Virus record (IMG/VR): IMGVR_UViG_3300000117_000295
Coordinates: 6-22,503 of that record
Length of the DNA stretch: 22,498 nt
Reading direction: 5' to 3' (one strand)
DNA from: a virus
In this document: positions 7,983-18,435 of the stretch, in pieces
Layout of the letters: each line of letters begins with the position of its first letter
Numbering within the stretch: position 1 is the first letter of the stretch
Notes under the pieces: generated by a model
Told to the model about the DNA's origin: nothing
Seen by the model: only the letters and a program-made list of their open reading frames with translations
Database searches by the model: none
Position numbers and translations under genes: made by a program

Positions 7983-8411
7983 ATGACAAGATTAACCTCA
8001 CTCGACATCAATAAACTAACACCCTATGCAGTAGGCTTTGACAGAGTCTTTGATAACATGCATCGTTATCTTGAACATCAAGCCACCAGCAGTGGTTACC
8101 CACCTTACAACATTGTGAAAGATGGAAACAACTTCCAAATTGAAATTGCACTAGCAGGTGTAAAAATGGAAGATTTGGACATCGAAGTTGCAGAGGGTGT
8201 GTTAACAATCACACACGAACCACAAAGCGAAGATGAAAAAGTAGGCTTTGTTCATCGTGGTATTGCACAGCGTAAATTTAAACGTAATTTTACACTTGCT
8301 GATGATGTGGTTGTAAATGGTGCACGTTTAGAAAACGGTATGCTTTACATTGCACTTGAGCGTATCATCCCAGAAGAAAAGCAGCCTCGCAAGATTGCAA
8401 TTGAGGGCTAA
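7983..8411 (+). CDS. Hsp20 / IbpA-like small heat-shock protein
   Basis: 142 aa with a standard alpha-crystallin domain (about 40-132): FQIEIALAGVKMEDLDIEV, GVLTI, then ARLENGMLYIALER, and a C-terminal IAI that matches the IxI motif used for oligomer assembly. It is an ATP-independent holdase that binds unfolding proteins. Hsp20 genes are common in marine T4-like phages, where a role in virion protein folding or stress tolerance is assumed. Its own box at 7869 and a ROSE-like leader suggest temperature-controlled translation. The closest neighbours, bS21 and ClpS, also act in protein synthesis and quality control. Confidence 0.92.
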   Translation: MTRLTSLDINKLTPYAVGFDRVFDNMHRYLEHQATSSGYPPYNIVKDGNNFQIEIALAGVKMEDLDIEVAEGVLTITHEPQSEDEKVGFVHRGIAQRKFKRNFTLADDVVVNGARLENGMLYIALERIIPEEKQPRKIAIEG

Positions 8412-8423
8412 ATTTTGATAAGT

Positions 8424-8451
8424 ACAGTGAGAGGGGAGACTCTCTCACTGT
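8424..8451 (+). promoter_or_regulatory. Strong hairpin in the clpS leader
   Basis: ACAGTGAGAG (8424-8433) pairs perfectly with CTCTCACTGT (8442-8451) around an 8-base loop. No T-run follows, so it is not a standard terminator; AGGAG of clpS begins 4 bases later. It could protect or separate the clpS message, serve as an RNase processing site between hsp20 and clpS, or affect ribosome access. Confidence 0.6.
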
Positions 8452-8465
8452 CACAGGAGTGAAAA

Positions 8466-8777
8466 ATGAGTCAACAAGAATTGACAAAAACCCGTGTTAG
8501 AGAACGCAGTATTGAATTGCAACCACCTAGTGATTATAAAGTGATTTATCTCAACGACGACAAAACCACATTTGAGTTTGTGATTGACAGTCTAAAAACC
8601 ACATTTGATTACAGTGAAGATCCAGCAGTGGACAAGGCAATGGAAATCAGTGAAAGTGGAGCAGGTGTGGTCGCAGTAATGCCTTTTGAGATAGCAGAAC
8701 AAAAAGGTGTAGAAGTGCTGATGCGAGCTCGTAACGAAGGTTTTCCACTTGAAGTAAGACTTGAACAATCAGAATAA
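8466..8777 (+). CDS. clpS: ClpS adaptor homologue (N-end rule)
   Basis: 103 aa, the normal ClpS length. A flexible N-terminal arm (1-19) precedes the core PPSDYKVIYLNDDKTTFEFVID and the helix AMEISESGAGVVAVMPFEIAE. ClpS delivers proteins with N-terminal Leu, Phe, Tyr or Trp to ClpAP and blocks SsrA-tagged substrates. N30 and D31 of the substrate pocket are kept, but the usual His (E. coli H66) aligns with S62, and the gatekeeper Met (E. coli M40) with F37. Specificity may therefore differ from the host's. AGGAG lies 6 bases upstream, behind a strong hairpin. No clpA is in the window, so it must act on host ClpA. Confidence 0.9.
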   Translation: MSQQELTKTRVRERSIELQPPSDYKVIYLNDDKTTFEFVIDSLKTTFDYSEDPAVDKAMEISESGAGVVAVMPFEIAEQKGVEVLMRARNEGFPLEVRLEQSE

Positions 8778-8807
8778 ACATTACAATCAACAATCGAAGT
8801 TATATCA

Positions 8808-9890
8808 ATGAACATAGAACAAGATCTAAAGTTAGACTACAGTGGTGTGTTGTTGCGACCAAAGCGTAGCACACTAAGTTCGAGAAAACAAGTGCGTCTA
8901 GAACGCACACACACATTTCGCAACAGCAGACAAACATTTGAACGTATTCCAATCATGGCAGCAAACATGGATGGTGTTGGCACCTTTGATATGGCAGACA
9001 CACTTGGACAACTGGGATTGTTTACCTGTTTGATTAAAACCTATGGTATTAATCAGTTGGTGAGTTTTTTTGTAGACCAACCCAGTAGAGCAGAATACAC
9101 AGCATACAGCATGGGCATCACAGATGATGATGCTGCAAAGTTTCGTGCAGTGTACACTGGTGCACCTACAATTAAGTATGTGTGTGTAGATGTGGCAAAT
9201 GGTTACAGCGAACGCTTTCTTAACACTGTTACTCAACTGCGACAAGAATATCCTGAAGTTACAATCATTGCTGGCAATGTTGTGACAGCAGATCAAACAC
9301 AAGAACTAATACTAAGAGGAGTAGACATTGTTAAAGTTGGTATTGGCCCAGGTAGTGTGTGTACTACTCGTATTAAGACTGGAGTGGGTTATCCGCAACT
9401 ATCAGCAGTTATTGAGTGTGCGGATGCTGCACACGGATTGGATGGACATGTTATTGCTGACGGCGGCTGTGTTAGTAGCGGTGATGTCGCCAAAGCATTT
9501 GCTGGAGGCGCTGACTTTGTTATGCTTGGCGGCATGTTGGCTGGGCATGACGAAGGCGGAGGCGAAGTAATTACCAAACATTACTACACAGATGAACTAG
9601 CAGATCGTATTGGCAATCGTGTGATAGCAGAAAAAAAGTTTGTACAGTTTTATGGCATGAGCAGTGATGCTGCAAATCTCAAGCATTTTGGTGGACTCAA
9701 AGATTATCGTAGCAGTGAAGGCAGAGAAGTGCTAGTGCCATACAGAGGTGCTATTGCTAACACAGTGCAAGACATACTAGGTGGGATACGCAGCAGTTGT
9801 ACATATGTTGGTGCTAATAAATTAAAGCATTTACCCAAGTGTGCTACATTTATTCGCTGTGCAGATACACACAACAGGGTATATGAATAA
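8808..9890 (+). CDS. guaC: GMP reductase
   Basis: 360 aa, close to E. coli GuaC (347 aa), with extended identity by eye. It starts with NIEQDLKLDYSGVLLRPKRST and carries ANMDGVGTF, CVDVANGYSE and IVKVGIGPGSVCTTR, with C185 as the catalytic Cys. The IMPDH-style CBS insert is absent. The signature AYRG-type end (VPYRGAIANT, then DILGGIRSSCTYVGA) also fits GuaC, not GuaB. The enzyme reduces GMP to IMP with NADPH, letting guanine nucleotides be turned into adenine nucleotides. There is only a weak ribosome site; a poor TTGAAC/TACAAT pair (8761-8787, 15-base spacer) is not convincing. The stop overlaps the next ATG (TAATG). Confidence 0.92.
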   Translation: MNIEQDLKLDYSGVLLRPKRSTLSSRKQVRLERTHTFRNSRQTFERIPIMAANMDGVGTFDMADTLGQLGLFTCLIKTYGINQLVSFFVDQPSRAEYTAYSMGITDDDAAKFRAVYTGAPTIKYVCVDVANGYSERFLNTVTQLRQEYPEVTIIAGNVVTADQTQELILRGVDIVKVGIGPGSVCTTRIKTGVGYPQLSAVIECADAAHGLDGHVIADGGCVSSGDVAKAFAGGADFVMLGGMLAGHDEGGGEVITKHYYTDELADRIGNRVIAEKKFVQFYGMSSDAANLKHFGGLKDYRSSEGREVLVPYRGAIANTVQDILGGIRSSCTYVGANKLKHLPKCATFIRCADTHNRVYE

Positions 9891-11665: not shown

Positions 11666-11668
11666 TAA

Positions 11669-11894
11669 CGCTTAAAATAAGCGGCTTGAACATTATATGC
11701 TGTTTTAATCCCTACACAACCGAGCCTAAATAAAACTGGAAGAGGAGAGACTTCTAGTTAGTTAGGCGTATTCGAGAAATGACTCTACCAGTTAGGGATG
11801 ACCCTTGCTGTGTTTCGTTATTTCTCGAGTAGAGGACTAAAGCCCAGGTGAGAGCGGGCGTATAACTGGAAGCTCTTGGAGAGAGGGCTAAACT
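11669..11894 (+). promoter_or_regulatory. Highly structured RNA leader of the curli block
   Basis: This 229-base gap holds several strong pairings. Hairpin A is CGCTT/AAGCG (11669-11683). Hairpin B is AACTGGAAG (11734-11742) with CTTCTAGTT (11751-11759), loop AGGAGAGA. Stem C is a 12-bp stem (11769-11780 with 11820-11831, core TCGAGAAAT/ATTTCTCGA), extendable by 3 bp, enclosing the mini-hairpin AGGG-ATGA-CCCT. Hairpin D is GCCC/GGGC (11842-11859). AACTGGAAG recurs at 11864-11872, so CTTCTAGTT has two possible partners. TTAGTT (11758-11763) can pair with GACTAA (11835-11840) as an enclosing helix. The csgF ribosome site follows at once. A CCTAAATA box at 11725 is a weak promoter candidate. Confidence 0.55.
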
Positions 11895-12341
11895 ATGAGA
11901 CTATTAATTCTATCGTTAGGGATACTCGCCTTCACACAGGCAAGTGCAAGCGACCTAACACATTCATTTAAAAATCCAGCATTCAGTGGACAAGGCTACA
12001 GTAACCATGTACTTGCCATTGACCAACTACAACAACAACGTAAAAAAGAAAATGAAGATGAGGCAAAGTCACTGGCTCGCGAACTTGAACGTGAGGCAGA
12101 GAATAGTACTTTGGCTAAATTTCTTAAGAACGTTGAAAGTAGAATATACGCTAACATTAGTAAGAGTTTAGTGGATGGTATGTTCGAAGATGATGGCGCA
12201 ACATCAGGCACTGCAGAAATTGAAGGTGCTACCATTACTTGGAACAAAGACGTAACATCAGATACAATCACAGTCATGATTGTAGAAGAAGATGGCACAA
12301 CCACTGAACTTACAGTACCAATGTCAGGCTTTGGATTTTAA
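11895..12341 (+). CDS. csgF: Curli assembly factor CsgF
   Basis: 148 aa (E. coli CsgF is 138). Residues 1-18 are a signal peptide ending in ASAS. The mature N-terminus, DLTHSFKNPAFSGQG, matches the FxNPxFGG segment that plugs into the CsgG pore in E. coli. A charged helical middle (QQQRKKENEDEAKSLARELE) and a beta-rich end (ITWNKDVTSDTITVMIVEEDGTTTELTVP) follow the CsgF plan. CsgF caps the CsgG channel at the cell surface and couples secretion to nucleation. A purine-rich GAGAGAGGG site stands 7 bases upstream, after the structured leader. It is first in a tight run with csgG. Confidence 0.88.
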   Translation: MRLLILSLGILAFTQASASDLTHSFKNPAFSGQGYSNHVLAIDQLQQQRKKENEDEAKSLARELEREAENSTLAKFLKNVESRIYANISKSLVDGMFEDDGATSGTAEIEGATITWNKDVTSDTITVMIVEEDGTTTELTVPMSGFGF

Positions 12342-12344
12342 AAA

Positions 12345-13190
12345 ATGTTTATGCGTATTATACCCATACTCTTAACGCTAGTACTCGCCGGATGTGGAGC
12401 ACACACTACAGGTGTACACAAGCAACCTGAACTAGCCCCTTTGCCAGTGCCTGTTATAGCAGAGCTCCCTGAGTTAGATGGCCAAAAGATTCCAATTGCA
12501 GTATATGGTTTTTTAGACAAAACAGGACAGCGCAAACCCAACGAAAGATTTAGTCAACTAAGTTCAGCAGTCACACAAGGTGCTGAAGTGTATGTTATTG
12601 ACGCACTTAAAAACATAGGCAACGAAACTTGGTTCACAGTATTAGAACGTAACAGTTTACAAAACCTCACAAAAGAAAGACAACTCATCCGTAGCACAGC
12701 AGAAACCTTTGATGATGGCAAATCGCCTCTCAAGGCACTAAAGTATGCTGGCTTGCTTATTGATGGTGGTGTTGTGGGGTATGACAGTAATATCACTAGC
12801 GGAGGCATAGGTGCAAGATACTTTGGTATTGGCGCTAGTACAGAATATAGAACAGATCAAATAACAGTAGCAATGCGTATCATCAGTGTACAAACCGGTG
12901 AAATATTGCTTACAGTGTTGACTCAAAAAAGCATCGCAAGTCACAGTAGTGGCGCAGATGTATTTAGGTTCCTTGATTTAGGTACCAAAGCCCTGGAGGT
13001 TGAGGCAGGGATGGCGGTGAACGAACCTACTAGTTATGCAGTAAAAGCAGCAGTCGAAGCAGCGGTTGCAGAACTGGTAAAACAAGGAGAACAAAAAGGC
13101 TTTTGGAAATTCAAAGGAAAAAACTATGGCAATGTACCCATTGGTTATTATCCTAACGGAAAGCCCAAAACTGCAGGAGAAAACAAATGA
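12345..13190 (+). CDS. csgG: Curli secretion channel lipoprotein CsgG
   Basis: 281 aa (E. coli 277). The lipobox LAGC puts the lipidated Cys at 17, as in CsgG. Family blocks are clear: IPIAVYGFLDKTGQ, AVTQGAEVYVIDAL, WFTVLERNSLQNLTKERQ, GGIGARYFGIGAS and the C-terminal SYAVKAAVEAAVAELVKQG. CsgG forms a nonameric outer-membrane pore that exports curlin subunits. The loop after RKP that forms the constriction (Y51, N55, F56 in mature E. coli CsgG) reads NERFSQL, so the pore eyelet differs. The gene starts 3 bases after csgF and overlaps the curlin gene by ATGA. Only a weak ribosome site is present, suggesting coupling to csgF. Confidence 0.93.
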   Translation: MFMRIIPILLTLVLAGCGAHTTGVHKQPELAPLPVPVIAELPELDGQKIPIAVYGFLDKTGQRKPNERFSQLSSAVTQGAEVYVIDALKNIGNETWFTVLERNSLQNLTKERQLIRSTAETFDDGKSPLKALKYAGLLIDGGVVGYDSNITSGGIGARYFGIGASTEYRTDQITVAMRIISVQTGEILLTVLTQKSIASHSSGADVFRFLDLGTKALEVEAGMAVNEPTSYAVKAAVEAAVAELVKQGEQKGFWKFKGKNYGNVPIGYYPNGKPKTAGENK

Positions 13191-13906
13191 GAAGCGCAGT
13201 AAAATTGTTGGCTATCTCGAGCATTGTACTTTTTTCAAGTATGGCATTTGCAAATGACATTTACATTACGCAAAGTGGCGATACCTTGGATTTAGACATT
13301 GTACAAGATGGTACCGACAACGTAATCGGAAATTCAACCACCGCAGTAAGCCTAACCGGCGATGATATGTCATTTGACATTAATCAGACTGGTAGTTATA
13401 ACACTATAACTGCAGTCATCAAAGGTGATACTTACACAGGTGATTGGGACATTACAGGTGATAGTAACGAAATAGATTTGTTATGTAGTAGCACAACCAC
13501 AGGTAGTTGTGATACAGTAACATTGACTGTTGCTGCAACTGGTGATGACAACGATTTCACAATCAACATTGGTGAAACCAGTGATAGTGATAGTGCAACT
13601 GTAGCCTTTACAGTAACAGGCGACAACAACATTATCGATTCTACACTAAATGGTACAAATGCAAACATTACCGTAGCACTTAATAACAGTGCTAGTCTAT
13701 CAACTAACAGTGCAAACAGTGACGAAGGCGTTGCAGTTACACTTGATGTGAGTGGAAACGGTGATAGTGCAGGACATACTGTTGACCTAGATATCACAGG
13801 TGGCGGCGGTACTGTTGATGTTACACAAAGTGGCATCTACGACAATACTGTTGATCTAACCATTGCTGGTGATGACTTCGATGTTGACATTAGCCAGAGC
13901 GACTAA
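13187..13906 (+). CDS. Curlin-like secreted repeat protein 1 (candidate amyloid)
   Basis: 239 aa. A signal peptide (1-22, ending MAFA) is followed by NDIYITQSGD and IVQDGTDNVI, which fit the curlin pattern of Q-x-G-x-x-N repeats. The rest is a series of 20-25-residue units rich in Thr, Asp, Gly and Asn (TGDDMSFDINQTGSYNTI, TGDDNDFTINIG, TGDNNIID, VTQSGIYDNTVDL), very acidic, almost free of Lys and Arg, with two Cys near 95-105. The repeats are looser than in E. coli CsgA. It overlaps csgG by ATGA, as expected for a substrate of that channel. A long beta-solenoid or amyloid is predicted; polymerisation is unproven. Confidence 0.8.
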   Translation: MRSAVKLLAISSIVLFSSMAFANDIYITQSGDTLDLDIVQDGTDNVIGNSTTAVSLTGDDMSFDINQTGSYNTITAVIKGDTYTGDWDITGDSNEIDLLCSSTTTGSCDTVTLTVAATGDDNDFTINIGETSDSDSATVAFTVTGDNNIIDSTLNGTNANITVALNNSASLSTNSANSDEGVAVTLDVSGNGDSAGHTVDLDITGGGGTVDVTQSGIYDNTVDLTIAGDDFDVDISQSD

Positions 13907-13908
13907 CA

Positions 13909-15042
13909 ATGTATAGAACAGTTTTCGTAACTCTTACATTGTTAGTTCTCTCGGCCACGCAGGGACTCGCCTCCATAGGTGATGTTATTGAACAAAAAGG
14001 CAATAGCATGATTGAGCGCCGTGGAGGCGAAGAACTGTTGGTGGACAAAGGAACAGATGTTGAAAGTTATGATACTGTTAAAACAGCAAAAGGTCGAACT
14101 GCTATTGAGTTTGTTGACGACACGCGAGTAGATGTCACTGAACACAGTAAACTTGTTATAGACGAATTCGTCTATGACCCTAACACAAAGACTGGTGCTC
14201 TAAGTATAAAGGCAGCACTTGGCACAATTCGCTATGCCAGCGGTCAAATAGCAAAGAATTCTAGACAGAACATTAAGATAAGAACTCCCACTGCAACTAT
14301 TGCTGTACGCGGTACAGACTTTAGTATGAGTGTGGATGAGTTTGGTCAAAGTACTGTAATACTGTTACCCAGTTGTACACAAATAGGAAGCAAAGCATTG
14401 TGTACAGTTGGAGAAATCTCTGTGGAGTCGGACATGGGACAAGTAGTTCTCAACCAAGCCTTCCAAGCCACTACTGTTTCAGCTATTGATTCAGCTCCAC
14501 AGAGACCCTTGCTACTAGATCCAGACGAAACATTCATCAACAATCTTATAATTGTGCGCAAACCTGTGTACGATGATGAAGAACTAGAACGGCAGAGAGC
14601 AAAGCAAATAGCCAATATATTAGACATAGACTTTTTAGAGATTGATGTTCTTGAACGAGACTTGCTTTACTTGGATGAAGAAGACACATGGTATACACTA
14701 TTGGATTACGATCCTCTGGCACTGGAGTTTTTATTTGATGCACTAGAAGCAAGTAATAAAAGACTAGCGGCAATTCTAAAAAGTGAGTTTGATGACATTT
14801 TTAATGAAACAATATTTGGATATGATCCGATATTGAACATTGCAATCACAGATGAAAATCCTGACTTTGTTGTAATAAGAGACAGCGGTACAGGAAATTA
14901 TATAAAACTGAGACTGAGCCAGAACTATGCTTATAACCTAACCATAGATCAAGGCGTAGGAAACAGGATAGACGATTTTAAGTTGAGTATAGACAGTGCG
15001 ATACCTGCTAGTAATGACATTAATATTTTTCAGTCTCAATAG
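13909..15042 (+). CDS. Exported FecR-domain protein, 377 aa
   Basis: Signal peptide 1-21 (LTLLVLSATQGLA). Residues about 22-165 form a FecR domain: ASIGDVIEQKGNSMIERRG, DTVKTAKGRTAIEFVDDTRVDV, SIKAALGTIRYASG and RTPTATIAVRGTDF are typical. These domains sit in the periplasm, in sigma-regulator proteins or as surface-associated modules. No transmembrane helix follows, so it is not a FecR-type signal transducer; it looks like a soluble periplasmic or secreted protein. The C-terminal part (210-377) is acidic with leucine-rich helices, then a beta-like end. It lies between the two curlin-like genes, 2 bases after the first, and may chaperone, anchor or gate their assembly; this is inference. Confidence 0.85.
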   Translation: MYRTVFVTLTLLVLSATQGLASIGDVIEQKGNSMIERRGGEELLVDKGTDVESYDTVKTAKGRTAIEFVDDTRVDVTEHSKLVIDEFVYDPNTKTGALSIKAALGTIRYASGQIAKNSRQNIKIRTPTATIAVRGTDFSMSVDEFGQSTVILLPSCTQIGSKALCTVGEISVESDMGQVVLNQAFQATTVSAIDSAPQRPLLLDPDETFINNLIIVRKPVYDDEELERQRAKQIANILDIDFLEIDVLERDLLYLDEEDTWYTLLDYDPLALEFLFDALEASNKRLAAILKSEFDDIFNETIFGYDPILNIAITDENPDFVVIRDSGTGNYIKLRLSQNYAYNLTIDQGVGNRIDDFKLSIDSAIPASNDINIFQSQ

Positions 15043-15778
15043 TTTTGCTAATGACATATTCATTACGCAAAGTGGTGATAACTTTGAGGCGTTGATAAAC
15101 CAAAAAGGTCAAAACCAACAGATCAAAGGTGGCAATACCATAATCAGTATTGACGGTGGCACTACCACAACAAGTGCTCCTATTGATGGTGATGACAACT
15201 ATGTAAAAGTCTTACAAGGCACAAGTAATACAAGCAACAACTTGGTAGAACTTGATGTTGCTGGTGATACAAACTCAGTTATTGTGCTACAAGATAGAAC
15301 TGACATGGGCAATGATGACACTACAGCATATGGCAATCACACCAGCAGTATAAGATTGTTAGGAGACAACAACAATGTCAATACCATACAACGCAACAAT
15401 GGCACAAATGCTCAACAAGGACACAGTGTGGCAATAGACATAATAGGTAGCGGGACAGATATAGATGTAAAACAAATATCAGACTATGGCAAAACTGCAA
15501 ACTTAGACATAGATGCAGATGATGTAACAGTTGACATCTATCAAAACGGACACGGAAATCACACCATCAACTTGGATGTTGATAATAATGGAAGTACATT
15601 TGATTTAGACCAAGGATACAATCCTGGCAGCACTGGGCATGATATGAACATATCTACCAGCGGTGCTTATGCCAGCACTATAACAGTGGATCAACAAAGT
15701 AACACAGCACAAAGTTATTCACTATCACAAGACTGTCAAACCACAGGCGGTTGTTCAGTAGCCGTAACACAATACTGA
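14996..15778 (+). CDS. Curlin-like secreted repeat protein 2 (candidate amyloid)
   Basis: 260 aa from the GTG at 14996, giving the signal peptide MRYLLVMTLIFFSLNSFA; an ATG at 15014 is a shorter option that loses the basic residue. The mature start NDIFITQSGDNFEALINQKG mirrors the first curlin-like protein (NDIYITQSGD). Repeats continue as QxG/N-type units: DGDDNYVKVLQG, AGDTNSVIVLQD, LGDNNNVNTIQRN, VDIYQNGHGNHTI and ITVDQQSN. The end carries two Cys (QDCQTTGGCSVAVTQY). It overlaps the FecR gene by 47 bases in another frame. By analogy with csgA and csgB, one of the pair may nucleate and the other polymerise; which is which cannot be said. Confidence 0.8.
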   Translation: MRYLLVMTLIFFSLNSFANDIFITQSGDNFEALINQKGQNQQIKGGNTIISIDGGTTTTSAPIDGDDNYVKVLQGTSNTSNNLVELDVAGDTNSVIVLQDRTDMGNDDTTAYGNHTSSIRLLGDNNNVNTIQRNNGTNAQQGHSVAIDIIGSGTDIDVKQISDYGKTANLDIDADDVTVDIYQNGHGNHTINLDVDNNGSTFDLDQGYNPGSTGHDMNISTSGAYASTITVDQQSNTAQSYSLSQDCQTTGGCSVAVTQY

Positions 15779-15798
15779 AACAGAGAAGGAGAGAGCTC

Positions 15799-16239
15799 AT
15801 GGAAGGACTTAAACTTTTAATAACAGCAGGTGCAATACTGGCAAGTACCAGTGCATTCGCTGATAACAATAACCAAGCAATGAAACATTGCATGGATGTA
15901 GTAGGGTATGATCGTAATGCTCCTGTTGAAGAAAGAATGAATGATGTAGATTGGGCAGCAGCCGCAAGTTGCTATCATGCTTACAACAGCGCCATCTATA
16001 GACAGCAGATTGCTAATCTACGTGAATTATTAGCAGCAAACCCACGTTATAGATATCCAGGACAAAGCAACAACAGTTGTTGGGGTAAACCGCGAGAAAT
16101 GCCTTTTGAAAGTGCAACAATTAGTGCAACCCAATTTGGATTTACTGCAGGTGTAAGTTACAAGGACACCATGCCAGCAGGATGCTACGAAAACGGACCT
16201 TGGGACAACAGGGAGGGCACTCATGACTATGACGGATAA
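15799..16239 (+). CDS. Exported Cys-containing protein, 146 aa
   Basis: The ATG at 15799 is preceded by AAGGAGAGAG, and the start gives a clean signal peptide (LLITAGAILASTSAFA, cleavage before DNNN). The mature part has four Cys, enough for two disulfides in the periplasm, with a helical first half (ASCYHAYNSAIYRQQIANLRELL) and a Gly/Pro/Trp-rich second half. No family recognised. It follows the second curlin-like gene by 20 bases, so it probably belongs to the curli block as an accessory factor. Position alone suggests this. Confidence 0.72.
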   Translation: MEGLKLLITAGAILASTSAFADNNNQAMKHCMDVVGYDRNAPVEERMNDVDWAAAASCYHAYNSAIYRQQIANLRELLAANPRYRYPGQSNNSCWGKPREMPFESATISATQFGFTAGVSYKDTMPAGCYENGPWDNREGTHDYDG

Positions 16240-16378
16240 TCGTTGGGCAGCACTAATTGTTGCAGTACTGTGTGTAGCACTATTTGCAAACTATACATAT
16301 TACAAATACAGAGTGGATGTGATAAGGGGCAATATATCCTGGGACATACCAACTGCTAATTTGAATCCACTAAAATAA
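16223..16378 (+). CDS. Single-TM small membrane protein, 51 aa
   Basis: It starts MTMTDNRWAALIVAVLCVALF: one membrane segment at about 8-25, followed by a Tyr-rich, basic stretch and a short polar tail ending NPLK. GGGAGGG lies 5 bases upstream of the ATG at 16223, inside the previous gene, which it overlaps by 17 bases. A second ATG at 16229 is possible. No family is recognised. It is the last gene before the cyclase and may be an inner-membrane accessory of the curli block. Confidence 0.68.
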   Translation: MTMTDNRWAALIVAVLCVALFANYTYYKYRVDVIRGNISWDIPTANLNPLK

Positions 16379-16383
16379 ATTGT

Positions 16384-16391
16384 TATAAGTA
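16384..16391 (+). promoter_or_regulatory. Late-type box, leaderless start for the cyclase
   Basis: TATAAGTA, one base from the late consensus, ends 4 bases before the ATG at 16396, with no ribosome binding site. The 4-base gap is the same as at 2296 and 4405. The cyclase may therefore be transcribed separately from the curli genes. Confidence 0.5.
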
Positions 16392-16395
16392 ATAC

Positions 16396-18435
16396 ATGTT
16401 CAAGATTATAACACATTGGACAGTGGCAACAATCACAGCATTGTTGCTACTGTTTGCACATTTTCAAGACAGTACAGTGGTAGAAACACTGAGACTAAAA
16501 CAGTTTGATTTACTACAACAACAAGATGTTCCACAAACCAGTCAAGACATTGGCATTGTTGCCATTGATGAAGCAGCAATTGCTAAATTTGGACAATGGC
16601 CCTGGAAGCGTGATGTACTAGCAGAACTTATCTGGCAGTTGCGCGACCAAGGTGCAGGTGTTATTGTACTTCCAATTATTATGAGTGAACAAGATAGGCT
16701 AGGTGGCGATATGGACCTAGCACAAGCACTCGTTGATAACGCAGTTGTTATTGCACAAATAGGCAGCACAGATGTAGACCGCAACGGTGTGCCACGTGGT
16801 GTTGCAAAGATCAACGATCCACTGCCTTTCTTGTATGAATGGGATGGCATGCTGGGACCTATTCCTCTGTTGGGTGATAATGCACCCGGTGTTGGTGTTG
16901 TAAACACAGTGCCTGAAATAGATGGTGTAGTACGTCGTGTGCCACTGATAATGAAGATTGGTCAAGAAACTTATCCTGCACTGGCAGTTGAAGTTATTCG
17001 CGTTGCCACAGGCGCACCCAGTTACCAAATTAAAAGCAGTGCAGCGGGTGTAGAAAAAGTTCGCATACCAGGTTATCCAATTGTGAACACAGATGCCAAT
17101 GCACGAATATGGTTGCGTTATAACAAACAGTTCGAAACAGTGAGTGCAGCAAGTGATGACTTCGGTGGTTTTGCTGGACGCACAGTTATAGTTGCTCCCA
17201 CAGCAGCAGGCACTACAACAATGGTTGCTACACCTGTGGGTGAGAAGTACAGTTTTATACCAGCAGCAATCACATTGCAAACAATGATTGATGTTGATCA
17301 AATCACACGTCCATGGTGGGGTAGTATTGCAGAACTTACAGCAACAGGCATACTGGGTCTATTTTTAGTTGTGCTTGCACGTTTTACACCTTACTGGTTT
17401 GTAGGCGGTGCAGTGCTTGTGTTTGCAGGTGGTGCTGTGTACGCACCTTACTATGCGTGGACAACAAAACTATTTCTAATTGATGGCACCATGCCACTGA
17501 TAACAACTGTCATAACAGGCTTCCATGCAGTGTTCAACAGATTTGTATTAGAGTTCTTCCAAAAGCAACAGATCAAAAAGCAGTTTGGCACATATGTAAA
17601 TCCAACAGTTGTTGAAAGACTACAAAAAGATCCAAGCCTAATACGACTAGGCGGCGAAGAAAAGGTGCTAAGTTGTGTGATGACTGACATGCGTAACTTT
17701 ACAGGCCTGGGTGAAAGTTATGGCGCAGATGTCGAAGGCTTTACAAAAACAATTAATTCATATATGACTGCAATCACTGAACCTGTGATGCGCAATGAAG
17801 GCACAATGATCAAGTACATAGGTGATGCTAGTATGCACATACATGGTGCTCCACTTGATGACGAAAACCATGCTAGGACTGCAGTGCAGACTGCACTGGA
17901 AATGATTGATGCCTGTGAACAGTTCAATGAACAAAGACGTTTACAAGCAGTGGGAGGAGAAGATCCTGGTCCAGCGCCGCCCCGTGTAGGTTTGGGTGCA
18001 GGCGTTAACACAGGCAAAATACTAGTTGGCAACATAGGCAGTGAAAAGAAACTGGGCTATGACTGCTTGGGCGATCCTGTAAGTGTTGCTGCAAGACTAG
18101 AATCACAGACAAAAAGTTATGGTGTGTTGTTGATTGTGGGTCCTGACACTGTTGCTGCAACAAAAGATGACTTTGATTGGTGGGAACTAGATAACATTGC
18201 TGTCAAGGGCAAAGAAAAACCCTTGCGTATATATGCAGTACACAAACAAACACCCGAACATGTCAAATTCTTAAAGAACTATTATGCGGGTAATTGGGAT
18301 GTTTGTATAAGAGATTATAGGAAGTATCAACATGCTGCCCCCAAAATGGCACAGTACTATGATAAGATGATAGAGCGTTTGACTCAAGGAAAGCCTGCAG
18401 ACTGGGATGGAATATACCGAGCAACTAGTAAGTAA
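16396..18435 (+). CDS. CHASE2 - class III adenylate/guanylate cyclase
   Basis: 679 aa. One TM (about 7-23), a periplasmic CHASE2 domain (about 28-300; IGIVAIDEAAIAKFGQWPW is typical), three TMs (about 313-382), then a class III cyclase domain (425-615). Metal ligands D431 (VMTDMRNFT) and D477 (KYIGDASM) are present, as are K473 and D556, which favour ATP over GTP, and R567. The usual Asn of the GDxVNxAxRLE motif is S563 here. The expected product is cAMP, made in the cytoplasm in response to an outside signal. Some 60 residues after the catalytic domain form a helical tail. The gene starts from a late-type box and converges with the minus-strand run, overlapping it by 11 bases. Confidence 0.9.
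   Translation: MFKIITHWTVATITALLLLFAHFQDSTVVETLRLKQFDLLQQQDVPQTSQDIGIVAIDEAAIAKFGQWPWKRDVLAELIWQLRDQGAGVIVLPIIMSEQDRLGGDMDLAQALVDNAVVIAQIGSTDVDRNGVPRGVAKINDPLPFLYEWDGMLGPIPLLGDNAPGVGVVNTVPEIDGVVRRVPLIMKIGQETYPALAVEVIRVATGAPSYQIKSSAAGVEKVRIPGYPIVNTDANARIWLRYNKQFETVSAASDDFGGFAGRTVIVAPTAAGTTTMVATPVGEKYSFIPAAITLQTMIDVDQITRPWWGSIAELTATGILGLFLVVLARFTPYWFVGGAVLVFAGGAVYAPYYAWTTKLFLIDGTMPLITTVITGFHAVFNRFVLEFFQKQQIKKQFGTYVNPTVVERLQKDPSLIRLGGEEKVLSCVMTDMRNFTGLGESYGADVEGFTKTINSYMTAITEPVMRNEGTMIKYIGDASMHIHGAPLDDENHARTAVQTALEMIDACEQFNEQRRLQAVGGEDPGPAPPRVGLGAGVNTGKILVGNIGSEKKLGYDCLGDPVSVAARLESQTKSYGVLLIVGPDTVAATKDDFDWWELDNIAVKGKEKPLRIYAVHKQTPEHVKFLKNYYAGNWDVCIRDYRKYQHAAPKMAQYYDKMIERLTQGKPADWDGIYRATSK

Follow-up and report, generated by a model that had tools for sequence, protein, structure and literature searches.

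A phage-borne curli-type operon with FecR-domain and CHASE2 cyclase genes and its chromosomal relatives in Caulobacterales

Organization of the locus

The 22,498-nucleotide stretch analyzed here (the window) comes from a 22,503-base virus record in IMG/VR and carries, from 11895 to 18435, a curli-type (type VIII secretion) operon. On the + strand, to which all cassette features described below belong, csgF, csgG, a first curlin-like gene, a FecR-domain gene, a second curlin-like gene, a gene for a small secreted protein and a CHASE2 cyclase gene follow one another head to tail, several neighboring genes overlapping at their ends as judged from open frames and family matches. This gene set corresponds to a subtype of the bacterial curli operon, characterized by FecR and a CHASE2 cyclase, which large marine-type phages would have acquired horizontally. 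A previous reading of the sequence alone (the sequence-only reading) had proposed a phage-borne curli-type locus with two curlin-like substrates, a FecR protein and a cyclase; protein families and open frames agree with this proposal, its gene calls were correct and its curlin calls are borne out at the family level. No virion hallmark gene was found in the window.

CsgF (11895–12341; Pfam CsgF, E 3.3e-15; phrog_35372, E 2e-48) is the secreted accessory of the pore, and CsgG (12345–13190; Pfam CsgG, E 2.9e-52) the outer-membrane secretion pore lipoprotein, which aligns with E. coli CsgG structures over residues 4–259 (E 6e-51) and contains the lipobox-like LAGC. At the position equivalent to E. 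coli F56, which we take to be the pore-constriction Phe, Leu is present in all 63 scorable phage CsgG proteins, while Phe is kept in the three Caulobacterales with FecR and cyclase genes described below and Leu is found in most other Caulobacterales scored.

Taken alone, the curlin-like fibre subunits 1 (13187–13906) and 2 (14996–15778; GTG start, overlapping the FecR gene) fall below the Pfam cut-off (Curlin_rpt, E 0.14 and 0.05, respectively). However, Curlin_rpt is matched by 39 of 47 homologues of curlin-like 1 (best 4e-7), and the Q, G and N positions of the repeat, Q-x-G-x-x-N, are invariant. The AlphaFold2 model of curlin-like 1 is a confident beta-solenoid (predicted local distance difference test, pLDDT, 86; predicted template modeling score, pTM, 0.81); its matches by VIA-align are generic beta-solenoid proteins, and Foldseek returned nothing below E 0.001. 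Regarding the slot of curlin-like 2, it holds a curlin-like open reading frame (ORF) in nearly all long loci, mostly ending in (V)TQN/Y. The constituents of a curli or type VIII secretion system (T8SS), i.e., a CsgG lipoprotein pore, CsgF and exported curlin-repeat subunits, are thus present, the last at the family level.

As already stated by the sequence-only reading, csgE, csgC and csgD are missing: none was found in the window, and a hidden Markov model (HMM) search detected no csgE, which encodes the gate, in the 203-kb contig of its nearest relative, L004. The 147-aa secreted protein encoded upstream of the cyclase was considered as a CsgE and rejected, the Pfam scan giving no CsgE match. 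The E. coli curli system (csgBAC/csgDEFG) shares with the window CsgG and CsgF homologues and curlin-type subunits; unlike the window, it has csgE, csgC and csgD in a split operon, with neither FecR nor cyclase.

Relatives in phages

A scan of viral contigs with a single CsgG sequence gave six pattern matches, none of them a relative, and an alignment-based CsgG search was used instead, from which the best 80 of 556 loci found constitute our viral sample. In the loci reaching far enough, csgF precedes csgG (78/78) and FecR (69/69) and the cyclase (40/40) are present, so that the gene order, whose examination across phage and metagenome contigs had been suggested, proves to be conserved in viral loci. 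HTVC008M and four Melnitz isolates share this operon and its gene order. The sequence-only reading had regarded the full set as unusual, a view that does not hold: it is standard in all sampled viral loci of sufficient length and has been published. Zaragoza-Solas et al. (PMC7029224) reported csgF and csgG. In myo- and podophages of Pelagibacter, Wittmers et al. (2022; PMC9599517) described the entire set including curlins, FecR and adenylate cyclase; they also reported that phage curli cassettes occur across the ocean and are expressed in metatranscriptomes.

With HTVC008M (KC465899; PMC9599517), the window shares the identical order csgF-csgG-curlin-FecR-curlin-cyclase, CsgG and FecR being 53% and 55% identical, respectively. 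It differs by a 147-aa secreted gene before the cyclase, by a cyclase of the D/S and not the S/N type, by a long folded leader and by a G+C content of about 40%, versus 33–34% in HTVC008M loci; furthermore, the T4-type terminase of the phage represented by its nearest relative is PA5oct-like. This relative, L004, is a 202.9-kb contig that is collinear with most of the window's first 12 kb and whose CsgG is 85% identical. The closest relatives of its T4-type terminase are found in PA5oct-like jumbo phages (54% identity), which, judging from this gene, places the curli cassette also in a lineage unlike HTVC008M. Phage-like curli cassettes were also seen on contigs (L084, L085 and L088) binned in Flavobacteriaceae, Pirellulales and Pelagibacter metagenome-assembled genomes (MAGs); these are probably phage contigs placed in bacterial bins.

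Upstream motif and leader RNA

A T4-late-promoter-like consensus match, CCTAAATA (11725–11732), is located 170 nt 5' of csgF. In the viral sample, [AC]TAAATA is found at most 220 nt 5' of csgF in 54 of 75 loci versus 9% of random windows, never 5' of csgG (0/77) or FecR (0/73), and 5' of 22 of 45 cyclase genes; these counts come from related, not independent, loci, and we quote no probability for them. csgF is thus usually preceded by a TAAATA resembling T4 late promoters, which suggests late expression.

The motif is followed by a putative, unannotated folded 5' leader RNA (11733–11894), recognized by its folding z-score and by comparison with L004. The z-score is -4.8 for 11666–11900 and -3.1 in L004, values below -3 being reached by 5 of 100 random windows of these phages, and the leader, which is 75.5% identical to its L004 counterpart, contains four base pairs with two-sided compensatory changes in the two-sequence alignment of the window and L004. 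It has purine-rich hairpin loops (GAGGAGAG, AGGUGAGAG and GGAGAGAG). An Rfam scan of the leader gave no family match, and a search in IMG/VR found it in L004 and in no other phage; folded leaders are not general 5' of csgF (mean z -1.27 versus -0.86 for random windows).

Late expression would also suit a different function. For Melnitz, Buchholz et al. (PMC9004378), who described csgA and csgB as lacking, suggested a pore related to lysis: the CsgG/CsgF pore would be the working part, as a pinholin or a secretin-like outer-membrane pore timing lysis, and the other genes accessory. Synteny, an AlphaFold model and the lack of clumping were put forward by these authors, the hosts of HTVC008M and Melnitz have no csg genes, and the late-promoter-like motif 5' of csgF fits the timing of lysis. 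However, in Melnitz itself csgG is followed by two curlin-like genes, FecR and a cyclase. This phage of OM43 (MZ577097; PMC9004378) shares with the window the gene order, the cyclase type and a curlin-1 about 60% identical; the 147-aa gene is absent from it. The authors named just csgF and csgG as curli genes and scored csgA and csgB as missing, despite the curlin-repeat genes annotated in their own Melnitz record. Moreover, every long locus retains the module, and the repeat residues of curlin-1 are conserved, none of which a bare pore would require. Pores of the holin type target the inner membrane; CsgG, by homology, is a lipoprotein of the outer membrane. We consider a lysis pore rather unlikely; since two curlin subunits and CsgF are conserved together with the pore, fibre secretion appears favored over a bare pore.

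Chromosomal relatives and descent of the operon

Bacterial loci were found through a search with the FecR protein. In three of them (L086, L087 and L211), all from Caulobacterales, csgF, csgG, one or more curlin genes, FecR and the CHASE2 cyclase lie on one strand. L086 and L087 are contigs of Caulobacteraceae MAGs, with genomes of 2.3 and 2.6 Mb, and L211, from a further Caulobacterales genome, is on a 705-kb contig; ordinary metabolic genes lie on either side of the L087 locus. These operons have the order and strand of the window and differ from it by their chromosomal context and by having no curlin gene between FecR and the cyclase; in addition, the L211 FecR, unlike phage FecR, has no curlin-like end. 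In none of the 23 other alphaproteobacterial curli loci fetched is FecR or a cyclase nearby. Bacterial T8SS operons have been stated to contain neither FecR nor the cyclase (PMC9599517), which the chromosomal operons of these three Caulobacterales contradict.

A CsgG tree places the phages in one clade (100/99) and the three bacteria with FecR and cyclase in another (100/97 to 100/99), its midpoint root and long branches allowing no firm statement on the direction of transfer. Most simply, FecR and the cyclase would have been added to a curli operon in bacteria, and phages would then have acquired this operon in full. The sequence-only reading had held that homologues placing the region in a bacterial chromosome without phage genes would speak against it. 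This is partly the case: chromosomal relatives do exist, but the phage CsgG copies form their own clade; the locus is therefore phage-borne and of bacterial descent.

No CsgE was found in five Caulobacterales genomes, including those with FecR and cyclase and two ordinary csg-bearing ones. CsgE is thus not defining for the alphaproteobacterial form of curli; its lack is common to the window and the bacterial relatives and does not exclude fibre export.

The FecR-domain protein

The FecR gene (13909–15042; Pfam FecR, E 3.8e-10) encodes a secreted protein in which a signal-peptide-like helix (residues 2–19) comes first and the FecR domain follows, strands beginning at residue 24; it has no cytoplasmic N-terminal anti-sigma domain, and Pfam gave no other domain. 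Its model matches the C-terminal signaling domain of PupR (Z 15.3, 136 residues, 2.9 Å) and, by its N-terminal end, the cell-surface anchoring domain 5ix9 (Z 7.9, 74 residues, 24% identity), an entry labeled as antifreeze protein. The 75 C-terminal residues form a separate beta-domain, modeled with high confidence. Of 61 unique phage FecR proteins, 59 have N-x-I-x-I-x-Q, or a motif close to it, in the last strand of this domain, compared with 1.7% of shuffles. The motif is lacking in all 83 bacterial FecR proteins whose loci are devoid of csg genes, and in the L086 and L087 proteins. Q375 is invariant and N369, I371 and Q348 are conserved above 90%, Gln 348 and 375 being the most conserved Gln pair, with a spacing of ~22 residues in most members, which are without the short insertions of the window. 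The curlin repeat has a period of 22–23 residues. The Pfam curlin model does not recognize this tail, whose likeness to curlin is therefore suggestive only; matching the FecR profile against those of curlins yielded no convincing similarity either.

A role of the protein as iron-citrate regulator was considered and rejected. It has been suggested (PMC9599517) that a CsgG pore left open by the lack of CsgE could serve the uptake of nutrients, cofactors or siderophores, with FecR sensing iron. While the Pfam match of FecR and the absence of csgE are in line with this idea, FecR is here devoid of a cytoplasmic anti-sigma part, the window shows no sigma-factor partner, the best NCBIfam matches of the protein are surface adhesins and lipoproteins (Lsa33, LipL45), and CsgF and the curlins would be superfluous for uptake, making this function very improbable. 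With no cytoplasmic anti-sigma part and, in phages, a curlin-like last strand, the FecR protein is probably an envelope or fibre partner and no iron regulator.

The neighborhood of FecR and cyclase genes is not confined to curli loci: of 54 bacterial FecR loci lacking csg genes, 12 have a class III cyclase at most 500 bp from FecR. In Campylobacterota, CHASE2 cyclases are clustered with a FecR-domain outer-membrane protein (PMC9239204), and in a Burkholderia biofilm operon a FecR protein is encoded beside a CHASE2 kinase (PMC5192318). Like the window, these clusters encode an exported FecR-domain protein beside a CHASE2 sensor enzyme; unlike it, no curli genes have been reported in them. The pairing of FecR and CHASE2 extends beyond curli, and the simplest reading is that CHASE2 senses an exported FecR-domain partner.

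The cyclase and the variable slot preceding it

The last gene (16396–18435; Pfam CHASE2, E 8e-40; Guanylate_cyc, E 8e-19) encodes a CHASE2 membrane sensor joined to a class III nucleotide cyclase domain with the two metal-binding Asp residues. The latter, together with the specificity Lys and the transition-state Arg (D431, K473, D477, D560 and R567), are kept in 52 of 52 scorable homologues. The transition-state Asn is missing in the window, which has Ser563 as do 31 other rows of the alignment, Asn being present in 20. Position 556, at the specificity site, and position 563 change together, defining an Asp+Ser type (32 rows, including the window and Melnitz) and a Ser/Thr+Asn type (20 rows, including HTVC008M and the bacterial relatives). 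These two types do not fully track the CsgG tree, e.g., L016 versus L039 and L063, which suggests an exchange of cyclase domains among phages.

Between curlin-like 2 and the cyclase, the window encodes a 147-aa secreted protein (15796–16239), for which phmmer gave homologues in about nine further phage loci and which has no significant Pfam, PHROG or NCBIfam match, and a 51-aa single-helix membrane ORF (16223–16378), called from its sequence only, which may not be a real gene and for which no homologue was found in any other locus searched. The family of the 147-aa protein ends in WDNRD. In related phages this slot is variable (L004:12130-14154, L032:12801-14300, L071:8786-10762) and holds 500–676-aa outer-membrane-barrel-like proteins ending in Phe, a 160-aa MIDP- family and others; none of the slot proteins tested has a Pfam match.

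Such additional exported or outer-membrane-like proteins would be in keeping with a superinfection shield, in which a curlin-like coat covers the infected cell late and blocks the adsorption of competing phages. Masking by curli has been discussed (PMC9599517), and the structural evidence is common to this explanation and to the amyloid secretion cassette considered below. Late expression would, however, afford brief protection only, and we regard a shield as the purpose of the cassette as quite unlikely.

Proposed function

In our view, the locus is probably, though by no means certainly, a late-expressed amyloid secretion cassette whose cyclase reports the state of the envelope, with FecR as a fibre or envelope partner. 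Following transcription late in infection, CsgG and CsgF would form an outer-membrane pore through which the two curlin-like proteins are exported, and these may assemble on the infected cell as amyloid of the beta-solenoid type. The FecR-domain protein would reach the periplasm or the cell surface and act as an anchor, nucleator or plug, and not as an anti-sigma factor, while the CHASE2 cyclase would read the state of envelope assembly and synthesize an intracellular cyclic nucleotide. For the phage, the benefit might be the aggregation of host cells, the masking of surface receptors against other phages or the control of the envelope state before lysis, all of which are compatible with the data.

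A more specific version, which we advance tentatively, is a self-monitoring amyloid circuit: the curlin-like end of FecR would join the fibre or the pore and the CHASE2 cyclase would read FecR, during late infection and also in the chromosomal Caulobacterales subtype. FecR and CHASE2 might then be a general sensor pair for envelope assembly, unrelated to iron regulation.

Several observations weigh against an amyloid secretion cassette of this kind. [AC]TAAATA is missing in 21 of the 75 loci, the late promoter being a motif match. CsgE, the usual periplasmic gate, is lacking, although this is also true of the bacterial relatives tested. The Pfam curlin model matches the FecR tail in none of 47 homologues, so that its curlin-like character lies solely in the residue pattern and the ~22-residue spacing. 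The activity and product of the Asp+Ser cyclase type appear doubtful from its residues and, finally, Melnitz-infected cultures showed no clumping (PMC9004378).

While this type of cassette was known beforehand in ocean phages, the present analysis adds its bacterial source, a likely late timing and a probable role for FecR. The bacterial FecR-cyclase operon, the exported FecR and the late-promoter-like motif make hitherto vague proposals testable in HTVC008M, Melnitz and Caulobacterales.

Other genes of the window

Positions 1–125 of the window correspond to the 3' part of a transfer-messenger RNA (tmRNA; beta_tmRNA, E 2e-7, under the Rfam gathering score), with the tag ANDNYAPEMAMAA followed by a stop at about 11–50; in Melnitz, a tmRNA lies about 4.7 kb 5' of the curli genes. 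Just 5' of the cassette, at 7983–9890, genes for an Hsp20 chaperone, a ClpS protease adaptor and a GMP-reductase/IMPDH-like enzyme stand in a row.

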